NCBI GenBank assembly: GCA_003141855.1
Contig: PLNS01000011.1
Location: 2,528 to 39,270, forward strand
DNA: 36,743 bases
Direction of reading: 5' to 3'
From: Candidatus Bathyarchaeota archaeon
Lineage (GTDB): Archaea > Thermoproteota > Bathyarchaeia > Bathyarchaeales > Bathycorpusculaceae
The stretch's first letter is position 1; each line of letters opens with the position of its first letter. This document shows, one piece after another, positions 1,340 through 32,890 of the stretch. The translations under genes were made by a program, and so were the position numbers. The notes below the pieces were generated by a model. That model was not told where the DNA came from. It made no database searches and was given only the letters and a program-made list of their open reading frames with translations.

Positions 1340-3925
1340 ATGACAAAACTAAAAAATAAAACTATGGCTATTTTGATTGTGGCAATCTTAACTATATCAA
1401 TTGGAGCTTCAACAATACAAATGTCACAAGCAACAAATCTCAATGTACCAGTATACCTAAAAGTCTACGCTGAACCCAATCCAGTCGGCATCGGCCAAAC
1501 AGTCTTCGTCAGCATGTTTTTCACAAAACCAATCCCCAACGTTGTTGGTCAATACTACACTGGGTTAACCATAAACATCGTTAAGCCAGACGGAATCAAC
1601 CAGACCCTTGGGCCATACACAGCAGACACAACCGGCGGTGTAGGCGGAATCGTATTCGTACCTTCAATCGTCGGAAACTACACTGTTCAAGCATTCTATC
1701 CAGGACAAAACATCACAACAGGTGACCACTTAATTGCAACTTTGAGCGACCCAGACTACTTTACCGTGCAGCAAGAACCGATTCCAGGCTCTAATATAAT
1801 TCCATTGCCAACTGAATACTGGTCTCGTCCAATCTACGCAACAAACTACCTATGGTCACAACTCGGTGGTAACTGGTGGGGTCTATACCAACCATCATTC
1901 ACTAGCACTGGCGGCTACGACGCAACCGGTAACAACTTCAACCCATACAGCGCAGCGCCTAACTCAGCTCACGTTATGTGGGTTAAGCCAACCGCTTTCG
2001 GCGGACAAGTCGGCGGCCCAATCAGTGGCGACCAAGAAAGCCAGTATACATCAACATCAATTCTCTACAACCAATTCGAGCCCATTATCCTCAACGGCTT
2101 CCTCTACTACAAACTCTACCCCAACACACCAACAAGTCCCTCTAGCGCTGATACCCCTGGCATAAACGCAGTCGACCTAAGGACCGGAAATTTGATCTGG
2201 CACAAAGACACATCTCTTACACCACTCTTCGGCTGGAACATGCAATTCCACACCGTACAGGAATATGGAACACAAGCGTACCTAGTCTGCCAAGCACCAA
2301 CTCAACCAGCTCAAGGTAACGTAAGTAGCTACAGCGTTTGGCAAGTTCTAGACCCGATGACTGGATACTTCATAGCAAACATCACAAGCGTACCAAGCGC
2401 AGGACCTCTAGGCGGAGCTGGCCTACCAGGCATAGTTGAAACCAAAGATTACAACACGCAAGGAGCAGTATACTACTATAGCACCAGCAGCGGCAACCTT
2501 ACCATGTGGAACTCAACCAGATGCTTCCAAGGCGGCACAGCCTTCGGTGCAGCATCTTCACCGTCCACCATACGCCCATCCGGAAACATCAACTTCACAC
2601 GAGGCAACCAATGGCAAGTAATACTCCCAACCAATATTAGCGGTTTAGCCATCAACCCAGCTTTAAGCATTGCTGGAAGAACAAATGACGTAATACTTAT
2701 GCGTTCGTACGGTCCACTGTTGGCTAGCTTCTCGACTCAATTTGGAGCATCCTACGAGGTAGAATGTGGATTCAACGCGACAAACGGTCAACTGCTATGG
2801 GGACCTGTAAACAGGACAGACCTGCCAGAGTTCCATGAGCGATCAGTTATCGCTGTCGGTGACCAACACTGGGTAGAACATGACAAAGACACCAACCAAG
2901 CATACACCTACGACCTACTTACTGGCAAACAAATCGGTTCAGTCATCACGCTTCCAGGCAACGCTTTAAGCACACTGGAACGCGGCGGAGCCATCGCTTA
3001 CAATAAATGTTATATCTGGGACTTCGGCGGCAATGTTAACGCGATCGACCTGACAACAGGTAAGTTAGTATGGACCTATAAACCCAGAGACGCAGGATAC
3101 AACACACCATACGGCATCTATCCATTCTGGCATTTTGGCTCACACAGCATCGCAGACGGCAAATTATTCCTCTCGGAAGCCCGCATGTACGACCCACCGA
3201 TGTTCTCTGACGCACACAAAATGGCAATCAACACCACTGATGGCACAATCGTCTGGAGCGGATTAGGCTTCTATGGACGCGAGCCAAGCGCAATCGCTGA
3301 CGGCTACTTAGTCGCATGGAACAGCTATGACTGCCAAATCTACACCTACGGCAAAGGACCATCAGAAACCACAGCCAACGTACAGCAGAACGTGGTGCAG
3401 TACGGTTCAAGCGTGCTCATAACCGGCAACATAATGGACAAATCCACAGGCACAACCGACAACGACAGATCAGCAAGATTCCCAACTGGCGTACCAGCCG
3501 TATCAGACGACAGCCAAACCGCATGGATGGCATACGTCTACATGCAGCAGCCAAAACCAACAAACGCAACTGGAATTCCAGTGTCAATCGATGTTCTCGA
3601 CTCAAACGGCAACACCCGAAACATTGGCACAACAACTAGTGATGCCACCGGCAGATTCAGCTTCACATGGACACCAGACATAGCAGGAGACTACACCGTC
3701 ACCGCGAACTTCTTAGGCACAGAATCATACTACGCATCATCAGCAGAAACATTCTTCACCGTCAGCGAACCAGAACCAACTGCAACACCCGCACCAACAT
3801 TAGCGTCATCTATGGCTGACCTGTACTTTGTTCCCGCAATCGCAGGCTTGTTCGTCCTAATCATCGTAGTATTAGCTCTGCTAGTACTCATGATGATGAG
3901 AAAACGACCAACCCCAACCATATAG
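1340..3925 (+). CDS. Secreted PQQ-like beta-propeller protein, membrane anchored (paralog 1)
   Basis: This 861-aa surface protein has an N-terminal signal peptide (about residues 1-31) and an Ig-like domain (about 35-145). Next comes a Trp-rich linker (TEYWSRPI, GNWWGLY) and a PQQ-type propeller (about 260-700) with recurrent blade motifs such as AVDLRTGNLIW, AIDLTTGKLVW and INTTDGTIVW. A second Ig-like/CARDB-like domain (about 700-815), a Pro/Thr linker and one C-terminal membrane helix (about 831-853) followed by RKR complete it. Propellers of this kind serve as extracellular binding or scaffold surfaces; a bound cofactor or enzyme activity cannot be shown here. A close paralog lies at 5214, and a TrmB-like gene sits between them. 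The stop is TAG, followed by a T-rich terminator and the conserved element at 3967-4090. Confidence 0.88.
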   Translation: MTKLKNKTMAILIVAILTISIGASTIQMSQATNLNVPVYLKVYAEPNPVGIGQTVFVSMFFTKPIPNVVGQYYTGLTINIVKPDGINQTLGPYTADTTGGVGGIVFVPSIVGNYTVQAFYPGQNITTGDHLIATLSDPDYFTVQQEPIPGSNIIPLPTEYWSRPIYATNYLWSQLGGNWWGLYQPSFTSTGGYDATGNNFNPYSAAPNSAHVMWVKPTAFGGQVGGPISGDQESQYTSTSILYNQFEPIILNGFLYYKLYPNTPTSPSSADTPGINAVDLRTGNLIWHKDTSLTPLFGWNMQFHTVQEYGTQAYLVCQAPTQPAQGNVSSYSVWQVLDPMTGYFIANITSVPSAGPLGGAGLPGIVETKDYNTQGAVYYYSTSSGNLTMWNSTRCFQGGTAFGAASSPSTIRPSGNINFTRGNQWQVILPTNISGLAINPALSIAGRTNDVILMRSYGPLLASFSTQFGASYEVECGFNATNGQLLWGPVNRTDLPEFHERSVIAVGDQHWVEHDKDTNQAYTYDLLTGKQIGSVITLPGNALSTLERGGAIAYNKCYIWDFGGNVNAIDLTTGKLVWTYKPRDAGYNTPYGIYPFWHFGSHSIADGKLFLSEARMYDPPMFSDAHKMAINTTDGTIVWSGLGFYGREPSAIADGYLVAWNSYDCQIYTYGKGPSETTANVQQNVVQYGSSVLITGNIMDKSTGTTDNDRSARFPTGVPAVSDDSQTAWMAYVYMQQPKPTNATGIPVSIDVLDSNGNTRNIGTTTSDATGRFSFTWTPDIAGDYTVTANFLGTESYYASSAETFFTVSEPEPTATPAPTLASSMADLYFVPAIAGLFVLIIVVLALLVLMMMRKRPTPTI

Positions 3926-5213: not shown

Positions 5214-7802
5214 ATGTCTATCAATTTCGTTAGAGAGAATGCTAAAATTCATGGAAAACAGAAACTATCTGTAATTGCTTTGATTCTGCTGTTGTCAGTT
5301 TCCGGAATAATGACGACTATGTCAAATTCAAAAGCGCAGACTGCGGCTTCTCCTCTTCCCACAAATGCTTATCTAGCTGTTTCGCCAAACCCTGTAGGCC
5401 TCGGTCAGCAGGCAACACTTGAAATGTGGCTGGGTCAACCCAACCCAACTGCATCCGGTCTAGTCGGTAGCAGGTGGACAAACCTTGCCATAGCAGTCAC
5501 AAAACCTGATGGAACAACCGAAACGCTGGGGCCTTTCACAGCTAATGACGCGTCATTCGCAATCGCATATTACACACCCAACCAAATAGGCAATTACACT
5601 TTCAAGTTCACTTTTCCAGGGCAACACGTAACCGGTGTATCACCAATGACCATGGCACCAGTTGACAGTTATTATGCACAAAGCAGTTTCACAACAGTAC
5701 TTACAGTACAGCAGGAACCAGCGACAACAACGCCACAAACTTCGCTTCCAACGAACTATTGGACTCGCCCAATAAACTCAAATAATCAATACTGGTATTC
5801 AATTTCAGGAAACTGGCTAGCGTTAGGTGCATCCACTTTTGGATCAACAAACTACAATGCGACAGGAAACTTTAACGCGTTCACCAGGGCGCCTAATAGT
5901 GCTCATGTCCTGTGGACTAAGCCATTAGAGTTTGGAGGCTTAATTGGAGGCGAATTCGGCGGAACGAGCACAAGTAACTACTTCACTGGCAAAACATATC
6001 AAACAGCGTTCCAACCACCAATAATCATCAACGGCGTACTCTATTACAACGCTCCTACAAATCCCAGAGAGGGCTTTTATGCTGTAGATTTGCGTACCGG
6101 GCAAACGTTGTGGTGGCAAAACAGCACTGAGCCTGTTTATCAACCTATGGGCGGTTTAGTGACAGGTTGGGCTTATCCTGGAATCTCTCTCGGTCAAGTG
6201 TATAACTACCTGTCGCCTAACATGGAAGGAGGTTTTCCCTATCTCTGGTTCACTGGCACAACTACATGGGATATGTATGACGCTAACACAGGAAACCGGA
6301 TATTACAAATTGCTAATGCAACAACCGGCGGCACAAATGTCGAAGGACCTAATGGCGAACTGCTAAACTACGTCATTGGAAATAATTGGATAGCTATGTG
6401 GAACTCGTCACTTTGCATCGGAACGTTCGCAAAATATACCCCGCCGATCCCACTTTTTAGTTCAAATGCTTGGGTCTGGAGTCCACCTATAGGAGCCGTT
6501 CTTAATTGGAATACAGGCGTGCAATGGAATGTTACGATTAAGTATCCGGGTGAGGCAATAGCAAGCGTCAACTCGGGAATAATACTTGCAAGTACCGTAA
6601 CTGGGGTAGGCAGCTATTTCGGGATACAAAGCTACGCAATAGAAGTAGGATATAGCGCGACGACGGGCCAACAATTATGGATGCAAAATCGAACACTACC
6701 TTCTGGCCCTACAACAGGGTACCTTTACAGTATAGGACCGATGGTCAACGGCATATACACAGCATACGACGCCTTAGCTGAGCAATGGTATGCTTTCGAC
6801 GTTAACACTGGCAATAAGATATGGGGTCCGACAGTAGCTGACCCTGACCCATGGGGTTCAATGGGAAGCGCATCGAACTCACAAATCGCTTACGGAATCC
6901 TTTACGGAGAATCTACAGATGGAGTTCACGCTTTCAACCTTACCACAGGCCAGCACTTATGGGACTTCAAAGGAGTTGACAGCGGAGCAGATTTCCCTGG
7001 CTTCCCTTACTATCCGTTTGAAGGTACTTCAATGACCGTTGCTGACGGAAAAATCTACTTGCAAACTGGTGACACTCATGGTGACCCCATGTTTAGAGGA
7101 GCACAACTTTACTGTGTAAACGCTACTTCCGGAACAGAAATCTGGAGAACAACTTCATTCTACGAAGGAGTTACGCCTGTTTCAGATGGAATCCTCATGG
7201 CTCTAAACGGGTACGACAACCAAATATACGCCTATGGTATGGGGCCAACCAAGACTACTGTTACCACACCAGCAGTCGGAGTAACAACCGCAACACCGAT
7301 AACTATTAGCGGAACAATAACTGACATTTCAAATGGAGCACAGCAAGATGCAGTCGCGAAGAACTTCCCTAACGGGTTACCATGCGTTTCTGATGCAAGC
7401 CAATCGCAATTCATGGAAGCTGTCTACCAACAACAACCTATGCCAACCAACCTCACTGGCGTTCCAGTAACGATAAACGTGGTTGATTCAAACGGCAATT
7501 ACAGAACAATCGGAACCGCAGTAAGCAATGCTTATGGAACCTACAGTTTGACATGGACCCCGGACATCTCAGGTACCTATACCGTTATAGCAGACTTTAC
7601 AGGCACAGAATCATACTATGCATCCAAAGCTGCAGCTACATTCTACGCTTCTGAACCAGCAGCAACACCCACCCCAACCGCAGCAGTACAATCTGTCGCT
7701 GACCTATACTTTGTTCCAGCAATCGCAGGCATTATTGTTGCAATAGCCATAGTTGGAGCTGTACTAACACTCTTGTTGCTTAGAAAAAGACCACAAAGCT
7801 AA
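5214..7802 (+). CDS. Secreted PQQ-like beta-propeller protein, membrane anchored (paralog 2)
   Basis: This 862-aa protein has the same architecture as the one at 1340. There is a signal peptide (hydrophobic segment about 20-36, processing near SKAQT) and an Ig-like domain beginning NPVGLGQQATLEMWL. The Trp-rich segment TNYWTRPINSNNQYWYSISG follows, then propeller repeats (AVDLRTGQTLWW, FDVNTGNKIWG, FNLTTGQHLWD, VNATSGTEIW) and a second Ig-like domain (VPVTINVVDSNGNYRTIGTA). It ends with a Thr/Pro linker and a C-terminal membrane helix (about 834-857) then RKR. The C-terminal segment DLYFVPAIAG is identical in both paralogs. Gene bodies have diverged strongly, while the 3' non-coding element is still recognisable. 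Surface binding or scaffold role is inferred. Confidence 0.88.
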   Translation: MSINFVRENAKIHGKQKLSVIALILLLSVSGIMTTMSNSKAQTAASPLPTNAYLAVSPNPVGLGQQATLEMWLGQPNPTASGLVGSRWTNLAIAVTKPDGTTETLGPFTANDASFAIAYYTPNQIGNYTFKFTFPGQHVTGVSPMTMAPVDSYYAQSSFTTVLTVQQEPATTTPQTSLPTNYWTRPINSNNQYWYSISGNWLALGASTFGSTNYNATGNFNAFTRAPNSAHVLWTKPLEFGGLIGGEFGGTSTSNYFTGKTYQTAFQPPIIINGVLYYNAPTNPREGFYAVDLRTGQTLWWQNSTEPVYQPMGGLVTGWAYPGISLGQVYNYLSPNMEGGFPYLWFTGTTTWDMYDANTGNRILQIANATTGGTNVEGPNGELLNYVIGNNWIAMWNSSLCIGTFAKYTPPIPLFSSNAWVWSPPIGAVLNWNTGVQWNVTIKYPGEAIASVNSGIILASTVTGVGSYFGIQSYAIEVGYSATTGQQLWMQNRTLPSGPTTGYLYSIGPMVNGIYTAYDALAEQWYAFDVNTGNKIWGPTVADPDPWGSMGSASNSQIAYGILYGESTDGVHAFNLTTGQHLWDFKGVDSGADFPGFPYYPFEGTSMTVADGKIYLQTGDTHGDPMFRGAQLYCVNATSGTEIWRTTSFYEGVTPVSDGILMALNGYDNQIYAYGMGPTKTTVTTPAVGVTTATPITISGTITDISNGAQQDAVAKNFPNGLPCVSDASQSQFMEAVYQQQPMPTNLTGVPVTINVVDSNGNYRTIGTAVSNAYGTYSLTWTPDISGTYTVIADFTGTESYYASKAAATFYASEPAATPTPTAAVQSVADLYFVPAIAGIIVAIAIVGAVLTLLLLRKRPQS

Positions 7803-11180: not shown

Positions 11181-11363
11181 TTATGGTCTTACGCATTCAG
11201 CTTTAGGCCTGTATGGGCGCTTTGTGGTTCTTTTGCGTTTGTGGTATTCGCATTCGTTGCTTCGGGTAAGCATCCAGCCTTTATCTTGGTACACGCAACC
11301 GCAGGGCAACTTTACTTCTTTTAAAGTAGCAGTTTCCTCGTTGCTTTTTTTGGTTTCCGCCAT
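11181..11363 (-). CDS. Small Cys/His protein, hypothetical
   Basis: This 60-aa basic protein has a central cysteine cluster (LPCGCVYQDKGW, then NECEYHKRKR) that could bind one zinc through Cys-x-Cys and Cys-x2-His. It ends in an Arg/Lys-rich tail (KRTTKRPYRPKAECVRP). The start is ATG 11363. A T-rich stretch follows the stop. The composition suggests nucleic-acid binding, but no family is recognised and the gene stands alone. Confidence 0.6.
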   Translation of the reverse strand: MAETKKSNEETATLKEVKLPCGCVYQDKGWMLTRSNECEYHKRKRTTKRPYRPKAECVRP

Positions 11364-11485: not shown

Positions 11486-12289
11486 TTACATGTTTGCTGC
11501 GACTGTTGAAATGTCAGCGATGTCTACTCGGTAGTTGTTGTTGAAGTCCATTCTTGTGTCGTAGTTTCCCCAGCCCGGCATTGCACCGTAGCATTGTGCA
11601 ACTGTGTTAATGTCAGCTCTTGTTACTGTGTTGCTTGTTGAGTCGTCGGTCATTTTGAATGCGTTAAACTGCATTTGTCTTTGCATATAATGGGACATTG
11701 AACCTGTCAGCGGATCTAAGCCAGTTATGTTGAGGGTGAATTTGCTCCAGTTATCAGTTACCGTTAATTCTCCGTAAGCCTTTTGTGTGGTAATGTCTTG
11801 GTTTCTAAGGACTCTGGTTATTGTGCCATTCTCATTTGTTATGATGGTTACATTGGATTTTACGGTTGCTACGTTCCATGTGCCATTGATGAAGTAGTTG
11901 CTGGCTGAAGAACCTGTGCTTAAAATTGATACTGACGCGTTAAGTAACCTTGCAGTATAGAAGACGTAGGTAAAGTTCTCTTTTGTTCTAACGGCTTGGA
12001 TTGCTCGCGTGGTGTTGGTTGTCCATATTGCGGTGGCGGAAGCTAACTGTCGAGTGTCTGAGGATTGAAGCAGAGCTGTTCTGGCTTGAGTTTGGAGCTG
12101 CCCTCTTACATCGGTTGTGCCCCACTGGTTAATGGCACCGTTGATGCGTATCCAACTTGCCGAAACTGGCCTGTTAGAGACGCTTGTCATGCCTCGCGGC
12201 ATTGCCGCGGCAGAATCGACTGCTAAAGCGAGACTGCTTGCTAGAAGAACTCCGATGACTGCGAAGATTAATGCTTTATTCTTATTCAT
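11486..12289 (-). CDS. Secreted dockerin-domain protein
   Basis: This 267-aa protein has a clear signal peptide (residues 1-30, AVIGVLLASSLALAVDSAAA). A central beta-rich domain of unknown type (about 35-215) follows. The C-terminal dockerin-like domain has two F-hand repeats: DDSTSNTVTRADINTVA, with a degenerate calcium loop, and DFNNNYRVDIADISTVA, with the regular Asp/Asn spacing and the closing Asp. Dockerins bind cohesin domains, and a cohesin protein is encoded 1.2 kb away on the other strand (13520-14203), so the two are likely partners on the cell surface. The central domain lacks an enzyme motif that I recognise. The start is ATG 12289. Confidence 0.78.
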   Translation of the reverse strand: MNKNKALIFAVIGVLLASSLALAVDSAAAMPRGMTSVSNRPVSASWIRINGAINQWGTTDVRGQLQTQARTALLQSSDTRQLASATAIWTTNTTRAIQAVRTKENFTYVFYTARLLNASVSILSTGSSASNYFINGTWNVATVKSNVTIITNENGTITRVLRNQDITTQKAYGELTVTDNWSKFTLNITGLDPLTGSMSHYMQRQMQFNAFKMTDDSTSNTVTRADINTVAQCYGAMPGWGNYDTRMDFNNNYRVDIADISTVAANM

Positions 12290-12584
12290 GTTTAATCACT
12301 TATTGTTTTCTCAAGAAGCTGTTGTTAGAAGCAAATAAAAGCATTTCTAAGCCCTTTTTCGAGTAATAAGCTATAAAACAGTTCATTTTAGTTCACGATA
12401 GTTCATTCACGTCCAGAATGGCTGAAAAACCAAGCTAACGGTTCTTTACCGTTAAATCAGCTATCTACGCGATTTATTCAACATAGCACTAACTTGTTCC
12501 CAAATTTAACTGAAAACAAATGCGGTGCAATCAGAATAGGGTTAAAAACACCCAATTTTAAATATGGTCGAAGCATTCCTTTAC
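12290..12584. promoter_or_regulatory. Divergent control region between dockerin gene and sensor-cohesin operon
   Basis: Three tandem 10-bp units GTTCATTTTA, GTTCACGATA and GTTCATTCAC (12381-12410) lie directly upstream of a minus-strand TATA-like TTTTATAG (12371-12378) that serves the dockerin gene. TAACGGT-TCTTT-ACCGTTA (12436-12454) is a perfect 7-bp inverted repeat. TTTTAAATA at about 12555-12563 is a TATA box for the plus-strand operon. The 10-bp phasing suggests a regulator contacting one face of the helix. Confidence 0.5.
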
Positions 12585-13517
12585 ATGAGAACCTGCATGA
12601 GTAACCATCGCCTAACAGTTTGCTTAACAATCTGTACGCTACTGCTTCTATTCCTTACAATCTACACGGCTCAATGCCAAAACTACTTCGAGTACCGCGT
12701 GCAAATAAGAAGCGATGGCTCAGCAGTTTGGACCATAACCCAGTTCTCAAGTGCCAATGCAACAGTGGAAACGTGGGATGTTTTTCAACAGAAAATCTTT
12801 GACCTAGTTGATTCTGCAGCAAACGTAACCCACCGTGAAATGGCTGTGGATGAAAACTCCCTCCAGATAAACACCACCGTTTCTTCAGAATCCAAAACTA
12901 CCGAGTACTCGTTTGTATGGCAAAACTTCAGCATCGTTCAAGGCAACAAACTCTCGTTTGGCGACGTTTTTCAAGTTAACAATTTCTTCGGACAGCTCTA
13001 TGGCGATGCGGCATTGCAGTTAAGCTACCCTTCGGATTTCAGCGTTAAATCGGTTTCTCCAGCACCCTATGAAAGGCAAGATTCGGCAGATCTGTTGAGG
13101 TGGTCGAGGACCCAGGACTTAGTCATTAACAGAGTGAGCATAGTTCTAACGAGCAACAGTCAAAGCACCTTTGGCAATGGCAGTGATTGGCAACAGTACG
13201 CCATCATAGTCGCGGTTTCAGCTGTAGGCGTAATCTTATCCTTACTGGGTTTTTACACGTTCAAGCGACGAAAAATTAATGCAGCCTCAACTACTCTTGC
13301 AGAATCCCCGCTTGTGAGCGAAGAAGACAAAGTAATAAAACTCCTCAAATCTTCCAGAGGCAGCATGCGCCAGTCAGAAATTACTGAGCAATGCAGGTTT
13401 TCGAAGGCTAAAACCAGTCAACTCTTAGCTGTTTTGGAGAAGCGAGGTAGTATAACAAGGTATAAGAATGGGAGAGACAAAATAGTGACTCTTAAAGAAC
13501 GGGTGAAAGGTGAATAA
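12585..13517 (+). CDS. Membrane-anchored sensor with cytoplasmic winged-helix domain
   Basis: The protein is about 310 aa: an N-terminal hydrophobic segment (VCLTICTLLLLFLTIYTAQ), an extracellular beta-rich domain of about 170 residues, one membrane helix (YAIIVAVSAVGVILSLLGFY), a basic stop (KRRK), and a cytoplasmic winged helix in the last 65 residues (EEDKVIKLLKSSRGSMRQSEI, then KAKTSQLLAVLEKRGSI). This matches archaeal one-component membrane regulators that read an outside signal and bind DNA inside. The frame opens at ATG 12564, but the TATA box at about 12558 would place transcription near 12584, so ATG 12585 or 12597 is more likely. It lies 2 nt before the cohesin gene and probably controls this locus. 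Confidence 0.78.
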   Translation: MRTCMSNHRLTVCLTICTLLLLFLTIYTAQCQNYFEYRVQIRSDGSAVWTITQFSSANATVETWDVFQQKIFDLVDSAANVTHREMAVDENSLQINTTVSSESKTTEYSFVWQNFSIVQGNKLSFGDVFQVNNFFGQLYGDAALQLSYPSDFSVKSVSPAPYERQDSADLLRWSRTQDLVINRVSIVLTSNSQSTFGNGSDWQQYAIIVAVSAVGVILSLLGFYTFKRRKINAASTTLAESPLVSEEDKVIKLLKSSRGSMRQSEITEQCRFSKAKTSQLLAVLEKRGSITRYKNGRDKIVTLKERVKGE

Positions 13518-13519
13518 TT

Positions 13520-14203
13520 ATGAATAACCCGACCAAGTCAACATCCAAAATTATTTTGACAGTTTTAGTTTGTACATTATTATCATTCAACCTTGTCTAC
13601 AGTGTTTCCGCACAGAGTACCATAGTGAAGGCAGAAGCATCCACGAGCCAACCACGCGTGGGCGATACTTTAACGGTTAACATAAAGGTCTCCAATGTCC
13701 AGAACCTCTTCGGCGTAGATGTAACACTTAGCTGGAACCAATCGGTGCTCACAGTTATCAGCGCAACCTCACAATTAGGCGTAGACTCTCATCCAGGCGG
13801 AGTTCTCTATGAAACATCAAGTTACCCAATTGAAGTGGTGGATGATACTGCTTCACAATCGACAGGGGAATACCACCTTTTGGCTACCTCGACTGGTTCA
13901 AGTACGCCAGCGTTTAGCGGAAGCGGAACAATAGCCACAGTAACATTTAACGTTACAAGCGCGGGACCGATAGGATTAGTATTAGCATCAGAACTTTCAG
14001 ACCATCCAGCATCTGGAGGAACCGCAAATCTAATTGACCACACAGATACCGTTGACTCAGTTACCGCAGTGATTCCTGAATTCTCAAGCATCACCACCAT
14101 AATAGTGCTCGTAGTCCTCGCAACAGCCACAGTAGCAGCCGTCTCGACCAAGCTACTAAAAAGCAGGGCAAGCTTGTCAATCAAAAAAGCAACCAATATC
14201 TAA
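13520..14203 (+). CDS. Cohesin-domain surface protein, C-terminally membrane anchored
   Basis: This 227-aa protein has a signal peptide (about 1-32) and one cohesin-type beta-sandwich (about 34-183). Typical cohesin motifs are VGDTLTVNIKVSNVQNLFGV, DVTLSWNQSVLTV and GSGTIATVTFNVTSAG. It ends with IPEFSS, a hydrophobic helix and Lys/Arg residues, the arrangement of archaeal PEF-type surface anchors that may be processed by an archaeosortase. Cohesins hold dockerin-bearing proteins, and one is encoded next door (11486-12289). AGGTG at 13508-13512 precedes the ATG, and the 2-nt gap shows coupling with the sensor gene. In bacteria such pairs build cellulosomes; in archaea the role is not established. 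Confidence 0.8.
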   Translation: MNNPTKSTSKIILTVLVCTLLSFNLVYSVSAQSTIVKAEASTSQPRVGDTLTVNIKVSNVQNLFGVDVTLSWNQSVLTVISATSQLGVDSHPGGVLYETSSYPIEVVDDTASQSTGEYHLLATSTGSSTPAFSGSGTIATVTFNVTSAGPIGLVLASELSDHPASGGTANLIDHTDTVDSVTAVIPEFSSITTIIVLVVLATATVAAVSTKLLKSRASLSIKKATNI

Positions 14204-30353: not shown

Positions 30354-31424
30354 GTGATTGAACAATATACAATTACTAACAAATATAACTTTCCACAACC
30401 CTCCATAGACTCAACCCTCCCCCAACGCTTCTTCGAGCAAAGCATCCACTCCCTCAAACAAGTCCAACACCACCCCCTGCAACTAAACCAGCAATTTCAA
30501 CAACTAAACACAACCGAACAATACCCCCACAACATACAACTAAAACCCCAACCAATCATCCTAAAACCCGACCACCAAGAAACAATAATCGCCGCCATCG
30601 ACACCTCAACAATAAAAATCGGCGAAACCAGCACCGGCATAATCGTCGCCGTCCGAGGAGCAACCACATGGAAACAAAACGGCGCCTACAAATACACCCG
30701 CCTCGGACCCTTCATATTCCACATAACAGAGGAAAACAAAAACCAACTATACAACACGCTCGAACACGCGTACTTTAGCACCGCATACGGTAGCTGCCAC
30801 CAAGCCGCACCAAACATCATGCAAATGCCCACACGCCTCGCCAGCCTCTTAGAGCGGTGGCTGCAAACCATGCTCGCAAAAACCGTAAACCGCGGCGTTC
30901 TCCTGTTTGATGGCTCATTAACCTGTGGCACCCCTGAAACCCCAACCCAACGCCTCAGAGAAATCTTGGGCTATGCAAGAAGAAACCAAAGCACCGTTTT
31001 GGCGTTCTCGAAAGCCACCACGCTAAGAGCCAACGGCTTGTTAATAACGGAGCAGCTTCCAAACCGTGACCCGCCCTACTTGCTTGAAACCGCAGGCGTT
31101 CATTCAAAACCGCCGATGATGCTGCTGGGCGACGTTTATGTGGCGCGATTAAACAAGGCAAACCTTGCGTTTAGATTGGACATCGACAAAGAAACGCCAG
31201 TTGAACAGCGGATGGATGCCATCCAAAAACTGCTCGGCAACGACCTCTACACACAAAGCTACCCCGAAACACTCCGCCTATCCCACATCCTCTGCGCTTT
31301 CACCGCCAACGAAGTCCTAGCCATCAAACACTTCATCACCCGCAAACACGGCATCCAAATCATCAACCGACCCGACATGCACAAACTCCTCTTCGGATCA
31401 TACGGTTTCAAAGGAGAAAATTAA
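30354..31424 (+). CDS. nurA: NurA-type 5'-3' nuclease
   Basis: A 356-aa NurA-domain nuclease. Family motifs are IIAAIDTSTIKIG (metal-binding D83), LLERW (E167), VLLFDGSLTCG (D186), a C-terminal PPMMLLGDVYVARL, and LRLSHILCAFTANEV with a likely catalytic His. NurA cuts DNA ends and works inside the hexameric HerA pump; in most archaea the two act with Mre11-Rad50 in DNA-end resection. Residues 35-60 are unusually Gln/His-rich (VQHHPLQLNQQFQQLN). The start is GTG 30354 after GGTGA. It is followed after 2 nt by herA. No mre11 or rad50 lies in this window. Confidence 0.85.
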   Translation: MIEQYTITNKYNFPQPSIDSTLPQRFFEQSIHSLKQVQHHPLQLNQQFQQLNTTEQYPHNIQLKPQPIILKPDHQETIIAAIDTSTIKIGETSTGIIVAVRGATTWKQNGAYKYTRLGPFIFHITEENKNQLYNTLEHAYFSTAYGSCHQAAPNIMQMPTRLASLLERWLQTMLAKTVNRGVLLFDGSLTCGTPETPTQRLREILGYARRNQSTVLAFSKATTLRANGLLITEQLPNRDPPYLLETAGVHSKPPMMLLGDVYVARLNKANLAFRLDIDKETPVEQRMDAIQKLLGNDLYTQSYPETLRLSHILCAFTANEVLAIKHFITRKHGIQIINRPDMHKLLFGSYGFKGEN

Positions 31425-31426
31425 TC

Positions 31427-32890
31427 ATGAAACTCTACAAAAAAGAAGGCAACATCCTGCAGATCATCAGCTTCCCTACTGAGAGCGCTGAAAAAGGCGA
31501 TTATCTGCTGGTAGAAGATGCCGACGCAGCCAAAGCGCTCATCGCACAGGTTATAGACGTGCAGTTCGCCGCTGTTCCAGGCGTTCTGGAGGAACTTTTG
31601 CGTACGCTCCCTGACGGAGGCGAACCCTTGCAGGGCGAAGACATCGACCCCATGGAAATCGCTCCGCACATCACCTACATCCAAGATGCAAGTCTGCTGA
31701 TCTGCAAAATACGCGCCACTTTAGAGAATGAAATGTTGAGCCCAAGCAGCAGCTGGCTTCCTTCCCGCTCGCAGTCCACGATCAAGAAACTCTCCATCCC
31801 TATGCTCATGAAACTCGCCAAAGTCGACGGTAAACTGCCCATAATTTTGGGCGGAACCAAAGACTCCTCCCTCTTAACCATCGACGCTTCATCCATAGAC
31901 GGCACACTAAACATCATAACAGGCAAGAAGGGTTGCGGTAAATCGCACCTCTCCAAACTCCTAATGGTCAACCTCGTGGGCTACAAAGCAACCGTCGTAA
32001 TTTTTGACTTGAACGGCGAATACTCAAGCCTAGGGCTGACCAACGACGGCAAAAGAAACATGTACTACGACAAAATCCACACCCTGATACCCTCGCAGAA
32101 CTTCAAGGTGGCGCTTGAGCAGCTGCCCCTGAACACGGTGATGGGTATACTCGTAAACGCGCTCCATTTGCCTGGAACCTCAGCTCGCGAGTTTCGGCGT
32201 TTGTGGAAGATGCTCAAAGAACAAGGAAAGCTCAACATGCAAAATTTGGGTGAGGCGATTCGCGACTTAAACTGCAACCAGCACGTGCGCGACGCGTTGG
32301 CTTCACGGTTCCACTCGTTTGCTAACTCAGGATTTTTCACTGACTGCCCAGGCGAAGCAACATTGCTCGATGAGAGCCTCTTTAAAGCTAAGGATGCAGG
32401 CGGCGCCATAATCGTAAACCTAAAAAACACTTCGAATATCGACCGCCAAATCGTAGTCGAATACGTCCTAGGCAAACTCGTCGATTCCCTCTCAAACTGG
32501 AAACTCAAAGCCGTCTTCCTCTTCGCTGAAGAAGCCCACTTGTACCTACGAGAAACCTACTGGGACGACATCGTCACCCGCATGCGCCACTACGGCATAT
32601 TCACCACGTTCATAACCAACCAGCCCGACACCATCCAAGACACCATCTACCGCCAAGCCGACAACATCTTCCTCTTCAACTTCACCAACGAACACGACTT
32701 GGATGTGGTTTCAAGGGCTGCACGTGTGGATGCTGAAACTGTTCGCTCAATCGCCCGCGATTTGCCCCCTCATCACTGCTTAACTTTAGGCAAAGTTGTC
32801 AGGGATTTCCCCATAGTTGCCCGCGTCAGAGCTTTAGACATTAAAACGATGGGTGAAACCAGACTCTTCTTTCCTACCCTTAATTCTTAA
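31427..32890 (+). CDS. herA: HerA-like DNA-translocating ATPase
   Basis: This 487-aa protein has the HerA plan: an N-terminal HAS-barrel (about 1-100, with KGDYLLVEDADAAKALIAQV), then a FtsK/HerA-type ATPase core. Walker A is GKKGCGKS (166-173), followed by VVIFDLNGEYSSLG; Walker B is AVFLFAEEAHLYL (362-374, catalytic Glu 368/369). The Arg-containing segment TRMRHYGIFTTFITNQPDTI precedes the C-terminal part. HerA forms hexamers that move DNA into the NurA nuclease. The length is normal. The 3' end overlaps the convergent surface-protein gene by 57 bp. Confidence 0.88.
   Translation: MKLYKKEGNILQIISFPTESAEKGDYLLVEDADAAKALIAQVIDVQFAAVPGVLEELLRTLPDGGEPLQGEDIDPMEIAPHITYIQDASLLICKIRATLENEMLSPSSSWLPSRSQSTIKKLSIPMLMKLAKVDGKLPIILGGTKDSSLLTIDASSIDGTLNIITGKKGCGKSHLSKLLMVNLVGYKATVVIFDLNGEYSSLGLTNDGKRNMYYDKIHTLIPSQNFKVALEQLPLNTVMGILVNALHLPGTSAREFRRLWKMLKEQGKLNMQNLGEAIRDLNCNQHVRDALASRFHSFANSGFFTDCPGEATLLDESLFKAKDAGGAIIVNLKNTSNIDRQIVVEYVLGKLVDSLSNWKLKAVFLFAEEAHLYLRETYWDDIVTRMRHYGIFTTFITNQPDTIQDTIYRQADNIFLFNFTNEHDLDVVSRAARVDAETVRSIARDLPPHHCLTLGKVVRDFPIVARVRALDIKTMGETRLFFPTLNS

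Follow-up and report, generated by a model that had tools for sequence, protein, structure and literature searches.

Cohesin-dockerin pairs are known as scaffolds, and the closest described relative of the pair treated here is the type II pair SdbA/CipA of Clostridium thermocellum, solved as structure 2b59. In archaea, non-cellulosomal cohesins and dockerins have been described outside cellulose degradation, in Archaeoglobus and in anaerobic methanotrophic archaea (ANME), in a report whose passages on them mention neither a linked regulator nor a shared control site (PMC9012536). Membrane substrate sensors of the RsgI/SigI type control cellulosome genes in Clostridium (PMC12203970), ToxR has as its tox-box TNAAA-N5-TNAAA, a 10-bp direct repeat (PMC8517210), and ArnR and ArnR1 of Sulfolobus acidocaldarius are one-component regulators that sit in the membrane, control surface structures and have their boxes upstream of the promoter (PMC6396743). 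Here we describe a locus of a Candidatus Bathyarchaeota archaeon in which a docking pair is encoded next to a candidate regulator of its own. It lies in a stretch of 36,743 nucleotides, called the window below, on contig C21 of a 2.39-Mb genome that is 96% complete (G000; the letters G, L, C and f mark the genome, locus, contig and family labels of our analysis). Its three genes are DOC, for a predicted secreted protein of 267 amino acids (aa) with an N-terminal hydrophobic segment, a predicted beta-barrel-like domain and a C-terminal dockerin (11486-12289, minus strand); SEN, for a putative membrane one-component regulator of 317 aa (12564-13517, plus strand); and COH, for a predicted membrane-anchored cohesin protein of 227 aa (13520-14203, plus strand) in an operon with SEN. 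We consider it about 55% probable that they form a self-contained, ToxR-like one-component circuit controlling the docking pair.

The genes were delimited from open reading frames (ORFs) together with homologues in 90 related genomes of the family and a structural model for DOC, Pfam matches and homologue starts for SEN, and the Pfam Cohesin match for COH. SEN and COH are separated by 2 bp and DOC is divergent from both; the coordinates and strands of the three ORFs and their divergent arrangement, as given in a preliminary description of this DNA, agree with the ORF list. We searched the 90 genomes for DOC at a cut-off of E<=1e-14 and examined all 24 rows. The divergent cassette DOC<->SEN-COH was found at 21 of the 24 matches, window included, while the remaining three were fragments (G016, with a stop; G073:C20; G015). 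SEN and COH are spaced by -44 to +16 bp at 20 of these 21 loci; the exception, with 197 bp, is L081, which has a broken SEN. Identity to the proteins of the window is 28-66% for DOC, 35-65% for COH and 28-65% for SEN, and chance or decay was rejected as an account of the locus, as the three genes and the site described below are conserved. Among 13 loci from named genomes, mostly on the same contigs as the family-genome loci, 11 have all three genes and two have a truncated DOC alone.

A profile of SEN was also searched over 256 genomes of the class and gave 31 rows, corresponding to 30 loci in 26 genomes. By profile, DOC is a neighbour at 27 of the 30 loci, a count that includes the weak case L150 (tail only, 1e-4); the two genes are divergent at 26 of them. 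Of the three loci lacking DOC, that of G195 is a piece at the end of a contig and that of G141 is broken; the third is L151, described below. The preliminary description had held that missing linkage in related genomes would undo the proposal, and linkage proved to be the rule. Cassettes are present in families f1, f6, f7 and f9, and some of them (L146-L149) have additional or multi-domain cohesins. In gene trees that leave out L073, L081 and L082, the type-2 cassettes of three genomes (G019, G027 and G031) group together for each of the three genes (support 0.994-1.0), so that the cassette is taken to be inherited as a unit. When 20 loci were compared, 33 of the 105 pairs, involving 15 loci, had a flanking gene in common. 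An origin of the linkage in common chromosomal surroundings alone was rejected, as the other pairs have no common flank and cassettes in other families keep the order. As a separate observation, the cassette of G197 encodes, beside DOC, a protein of 575 aa with three cohesin matches (L149, 4109-5836, minus strand), a small scaffold-like archaeal protein.

The cohesin domain of COH covers residues 42-168 (13643-14023, plus strand), as placed by Pfam and PDB profile matches. COH matches Pfam Cohesin (PF00963) at 4.9e-11, with 43.4 bits against a cut-off of 24.1, and all 21 homologues, that of the window included, match at E<=0.001. Searched against the PDB, the COH profile matches cohesins of type II, including 2b59_A (8.2e-9); the top sequences are those of scaffoldin adaptor protein B and SdbA cohesins, which are of type II. 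By these matches the predicted cohesin is closest to type II, not type I. The dockerin tail of DOC (residues 205-267; 11489-11677, minus strand) was placed by profile matches and loop counts. A profile of whole DOC, built from 20 homologues including that of the window, matches 2b59_B, the X-module and type II dockerin of CipA, at 4.7e-7, and the alignment runs from profile position 156 through the dockerin and covers part of the X module too. When only the tail was used (63 residues, 23 sequences), 2b59_B was matched at 2.7e-6, and four dockerin chains occupied the top rows of the PDB search, with calmodulins coming only after them. By profile homology, then, the tail is a predicted type II-like dockerin, and the COH and DOC profiles match the two halves, 2b59_A and 2b59_B, of one solved type II complex.

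The Pfam model Dockerin_1 (PF00404) gave no match to DOC at E<=1 in the Pfam scan; one of 20 full homologues matches, at E 0.063 only, and five of 23 tails searched alone do so at E<=0.1, the best at 6.9e-5. DOC as a plain Pfam dockerin is unsupported, and its tail is visible to profile searches only. In the second loop (residues 248-259), the five calcium-type positions of 20 homologues hold D in 20, N in 17, N or D in 18, D in 18 and D in 20 sequences. The preliminary description had proposed a two-repeat dockerin, to be abandoned if the C-terminal repeats failed to match dockerin profiles. The family profile does recognise a dockerin; its second loop is conserved, the first loop is degenerate and the Pfam match is missing.

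In the AlphaFold2 model of DOC, residues 41-207 (11669-12169, minus strand) are beta-rich and resemble an up-and-down barrel, with block pLDDT values of 67-95, while the dockerin tail has a pLDDT of about 35 and was left uninterpreted. Foldseek returned no match to this model at E<=0.001. VIA-align gave its best Z, 10.8, to the OmpA barrel 1qjp (123 residues aligned, root mean square deviation 3.6), and soluble barrels scored lower. An OmpA-type outer membrane is not expected in these archaea, and the match was therefore taken as a sign of a barrel-like shape only. We read the modelled domain as a soluble barrel; the existence of a ligand for it is a guess.

COH ends in a PEF motif and a C-terminal hydrophobic helix (14075-14161, plus strand), in which P186 and E187 are nearly invariant. 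PEF-CTERM (TIGR03024) scores 13.5 bits, under its cut-off of 23, and is found at E<=0.1 in four of 21 COH members; the genome also encodes an archaeosortase-type enzyme (PF09721 at 1.7e-9, above cut-off). The cohesin and a C-terminal transmembrane helix of the previously proposed PEF-anchored cohesin protein were thus recovered, but the PEF signal falls short of its cut-off, and the sequence is only suggestive of a PEF-type anchor. In the window's own genome the cohesin search gave one match, the homologue search found no further DOC, and the Pfam dockerin search gave 0 matches, so that the further dockerin proteins for which the preliminary description had proposed to look were absent from both searches. 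As the pair looks one-to-one in this genome, no cellulosome-like scaffold is indicated. A cellulosome was considered and is ruled out by the single cohesin match, by the lack of Pfam dockerins in a genome of this completeness and by DOC, for which the Pfam scan gave no enzyme domain. Compared with SdbA/CipA, whose two chains the profiles match, the cassette has neither a many-cohesin scaffold nor enzymes, the other domain of DOC is barrel-like, and a dedicated regulator appears to be encoded alongside.

SEN matches Pfam DUF7345 at 2.6e-14 and DUF7343 at 6.7e-17, both above cut-off. Its predicted parts are an ectodomain with DUF7345 (residues 40-200; 12681-13163, plus strand; Pfam and model), a transmembrane helix and its continuation with the positive stretch FKRRK (13179-13286, plus strand; helix in the model, hydropathy in homologues) and a cytoplasmic, MarR-like winged helix, DUF7343 (13311-13505, plus strand). 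The model has a mean pLDDT of 81 and shows an N-terminal helix, the ectodomain, a long helix at 206-241 and the winged helix at 253-310; the sides of the membrane were assigned from the positive residues. DUF7345, helix 206-241 and DUF7343 in one chain make SEN, as predicted from sequence and model, a membrane one-component regulator, in keeping with the membrane-anchored winged-helix sensor that had been suggested. Of the 20 SEN homologues scanned, 20 carry DUF7343 and 19 carry DUF7345. The start listed at 12564 falls within the likely TATA box of the SEN-COH operon (TTTTAAATA, 12556-12564, plus strand; assigned from the sequence, with a comparable AT-rich element preceding SEN in many homologues), and the homologues begin mostly at window residue 8 or 12, so that the true start is probably 12585 or 12597.

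At one locus, L082 of G074, the gene in the place of SEN encodes a cohesin (1.7e-10), a transmembrane helix and DUF7343 (1.1e-16), both matches above cut-off, and is divergent from DOC; the cohesin takes the place of the ectodomain. This is the clearest hint, thin because it is a single case, that the sensor might receive the dockerin directly. With ToxR-like regulators SEN would share an outside domain, one transmembrane helix and a cytoplasmic winged helix. Unlike in the ToxR family, the winged helix of SEN is C-terminal and MarR-like instead of N-terminal and OmpR-type, so that the order is reversed, and SEN is archaeal. ArnR and ArnR1, by contrast, have an N-terminal helix-turn-helix, two C-terminal transmembrane helices, inverted repeats and, as targets, pili and the archaellum. 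RsgI is an anti-sigma factor that is cut by proteases, whereas SEN has a predicted DNA-binding domain in its own chain, without any part for a sigma factor.

Between DOC and SEN we found an operator-like site of four 10-bp-phased units, GTTCATTTTA GTTCACGATA GTTCATTCAC GTCCA (GTTCA, GTTCA, GTTCA, GTCCA; 12381-12415, plus strand). The first unit is 46 bp from the likely TATA box of DOC (12335-12341, minus strand), which reads ATAAAAG on the plus and CTTTTAT on the minus strand, adjoins AGAAATG, a sequence resembling the B recognition element (BRE), and was assigned from a word aligned in 17 of 21 loci. The arrangement GTTYA-N5-GTTYA has the same geometry as the tox-box (PMC8517210). Three perfect GTTYA units at period 10 are present in 14 of the 21 DOC-SEN intergenic regions, against a mean of 0.002 after dinucleotide shuffling, and at any other period from 5 to 17 there are none in these 21 regions. 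Measured from the TATA word, the first unit stands at exactly 46 bp in 17 of the 21 loci; in the other four this comparison found no usable TATA word (L068 matched ATAAAAG on the SEN side only, and L065, L076 and L082 matched none).

In the 90 genomes, the unspaced GTTYA triple gave 31 rows, which amount to 24 distinct sites with 14 at DOC; the backwards control gave 10 matches. A strict pattern with TATA word and spacing fixed was searched in 162 genomes of the order and gave 19 sites, of which 17 lie between DOC and SEN, with one match in the control; the two outside cassettes are an orphan promoter copy (G017:C47) and a stray site (G010). This pattern was built from the main cassettes, and matches at them are therefore not independent. 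The out-of-sample cases are G194, one of the 17 cassette sites, which belongs to another family; L112, L146 and L150, where the register is kept; L148; and L082 and L149. Units at 36/46/56/66/76/86 hold the same register in L072, L112, L146 and L150, and in L148 three of four words are in the common register. Measured from an ATAAAC word as TATA reference, the units of L082 stand at 44/54/64/74 and those of L149 at 44/64/74 (plus 25 and 94), so that most words of these two loci hold a constant phase at 44 instead of 46. For this comparison L065, L068 and L076 offered no TATA word, and the TATA position was set by hand in L073 and by word choice in L150. The strict site is present in 17 of 26 genomes with SEN and in 1 of 136 others (Fisher p 1.2e-15, with kinship ignored and the pattern taken largely from these loci). 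In the window's own genome the unspaced motif occurs without mismatch only before DOC, so that the regulator looks dedicated to this gene; a regulon there was rejected, as one-mismatch matches are at control level.

Two further copies of the site were seen away from the cassettes. At L161 (3819-3900, G017:C47) there is a complete copy of the DOC promoter, with the site at 46 bp and neither DOC nor another clear gene behind it. At L162 (2779-4072, minus strand, G027:C26) another site with this architecture stands 45 bp away from its TATA word, where the strict pattern with its fixed spacing could not detect it. Behind the site is a secreted ORF that is split over two frames. This ORF had no Pfam match at E<=0.01 and its second frame no PDB match; by eye it reads like a parallel beta-helix.

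The cassette content and linkage, the domain homologies and the conserved site with its spacing are observed, and we propose that they work as follows. COH would be anchored in the membrane and expose its type II-like cohesin as a socket, and DOC would be secreted and plug into it through the type II-like dockerin, leaving the barrel domain on display, where it probably binds something outside. The winged helices of SEN would bind three to four GTTYA units before DOC, aligned on one face of the DNA helix, and from that distance would most likely activate DOC transcription. The ectodomain of SEN would sense the outside, its preferred input being the state of DOC and COH, with the socket free or occupied, which would place the production of the plug under feedback. 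The profile matches argue strongly for DOC-COH binding, the case for SEN binding to the GTTYA site is good, and confidence that SEN activates DOC is moderate; activation is favoured because the site lies beyond BRE and TATA, like the ArnR boxes. That SEN senses docking has somewhat less than an even chance; this input is favoured because SEN is co-transcribed with COH and because of the L082 fusion, and another cue may act instead because the usual ectodomain is DUF7345. More tentatively still, cohesin-dockerin engagement itself could be the transmembrane signal, so that the sensor reads a filled socket (directly in G074, where its own ectodomain would be the socket) and rows of sensors on the phased DNA tie the promoter of the plug to the membrane. 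The preliminary description's regulator that reads the state of the surface thus gains from the phased site and the L082 ectodomain but is set back by the prevalence of DUF7345.

Several observations weigh against this circuit or parts of it. Among the matches listed the cohesin-sensor fusion occurs in one genome of 256 with no other full-length match to it; one SEN (L151) has no DOC inside its 5.7-kb contig; and in G018 (L081, 5426-6232, minus strand) SEN stops early and stop codons split its winged helix off into another frame, although DOC, COH and the site persist, a natural case of loss. The ectodomain is DUF7345 and not cohesin in 19 of the 20 SEN scanned, and at L089 SEN and DOC are convergent with no cohesin in view. 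These last two observations would suit an account in which SEN senses an unrelated outside cue, such as a ligand, perhaps carried by the barrel-like domain of DOC, or the state of the envelope, and turns DOC on without feedback, COH merely anchoring DOC. We hold this account to be unlikely, if serious: the sensor ectodomain of L082 is a cohesin, and SEN and COH are almost always co-encoded. It is far more doubtful that COH and DOC, as surface proteins, have no affinity for one another and are linked through shared use only. Sequence alone cannot show binding, DOC lies outside the Pfam dockerin model and its loop 1 (215-226) is degenerate, but the two proteins correspond to the two partners of a single solved complex of type II and stand as one cohesin match and one DOC in their genome.

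Another transcription factor might read the GTTYA site while SEN controls something else. In favour of this, the units of the site repeat in direct orientation, although inverted repeats are the usual targets of MarR-type dimers, and site-like copies exist away from the cassettes at G017:C47 and G027:C26. This seems quite improbable to us, given the concentration of strict sites in genomes with SEN and the membrane winged-helix protein ToxR, which uses direct repeats of the same geometry (PMC8517210). Repression of DOC by SEN, lifted by engagement or by a ligand, is improbable too. Many MarR-type regulators act as repressors, but the site is 39 bp beyond the TATA word and upstream of BRE, where archaeal activators usually sit. 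For ArnR, too, the fragment that carries its two boxes is found upstream, covering -43 to -84 relative to the start site (PMC6396743), which again favours activation by SEN.

Within the literature searched, we found neither a cohesin-dockerin pair described together with a dedicated regulator nor any mention of DUF7343 or DUF7345. The kinds of component, archaeal cohesins and dockerins and membrane regulators, are already known; the combination and the phased site are new within that literature. The cassette is a minimal one-to-one pair with its own putative regulator and a sharply defined candidate DNA site, and the question can therefore be tested with three proteins and one promoter. It suggests that the cell can tune the amount of this surface component. 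If the feedback is true, a cell would have a novel means of monitoring its own surface, and the cassette would offer a natural set of parts for surface sensors. For the unnamed domain pair DUF7345-DUF7343, DOC is now a concrete candidate as target gene.

A 60-aa ORF rich in Cys and His (11181-11363, minus strand; LPCGCVYQDKGWMLTR..CEYHKRKRT..RPYRPKAECVRP) follows closely behind DOC, in the same orientation, at 13 of 20 loci with 68-90% identity, and lies farther away in L074. It encodes a conserved small protein that perhaps binds zinc. Its candidacy as a fourth cassette gene was rejected, and we treat it as an independent neighbour because it is also kept beside decayed cassettes (L083, L085). 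Elsewhere in the window, judged by eye from the translations, one ORF resembles a contractile tail sheath protein of phage type (26901-27980, minus strand) and two resemble a NurA-HerA pair (30354-32890, plus strand). The plus strand also encodes, at 1340-3925 and 5214-7802, two secreted proteins that resemble each other (861 and 862 aa, with a transmembrane helix at the C-terminus) and by eye are apparently tandem paralogues.

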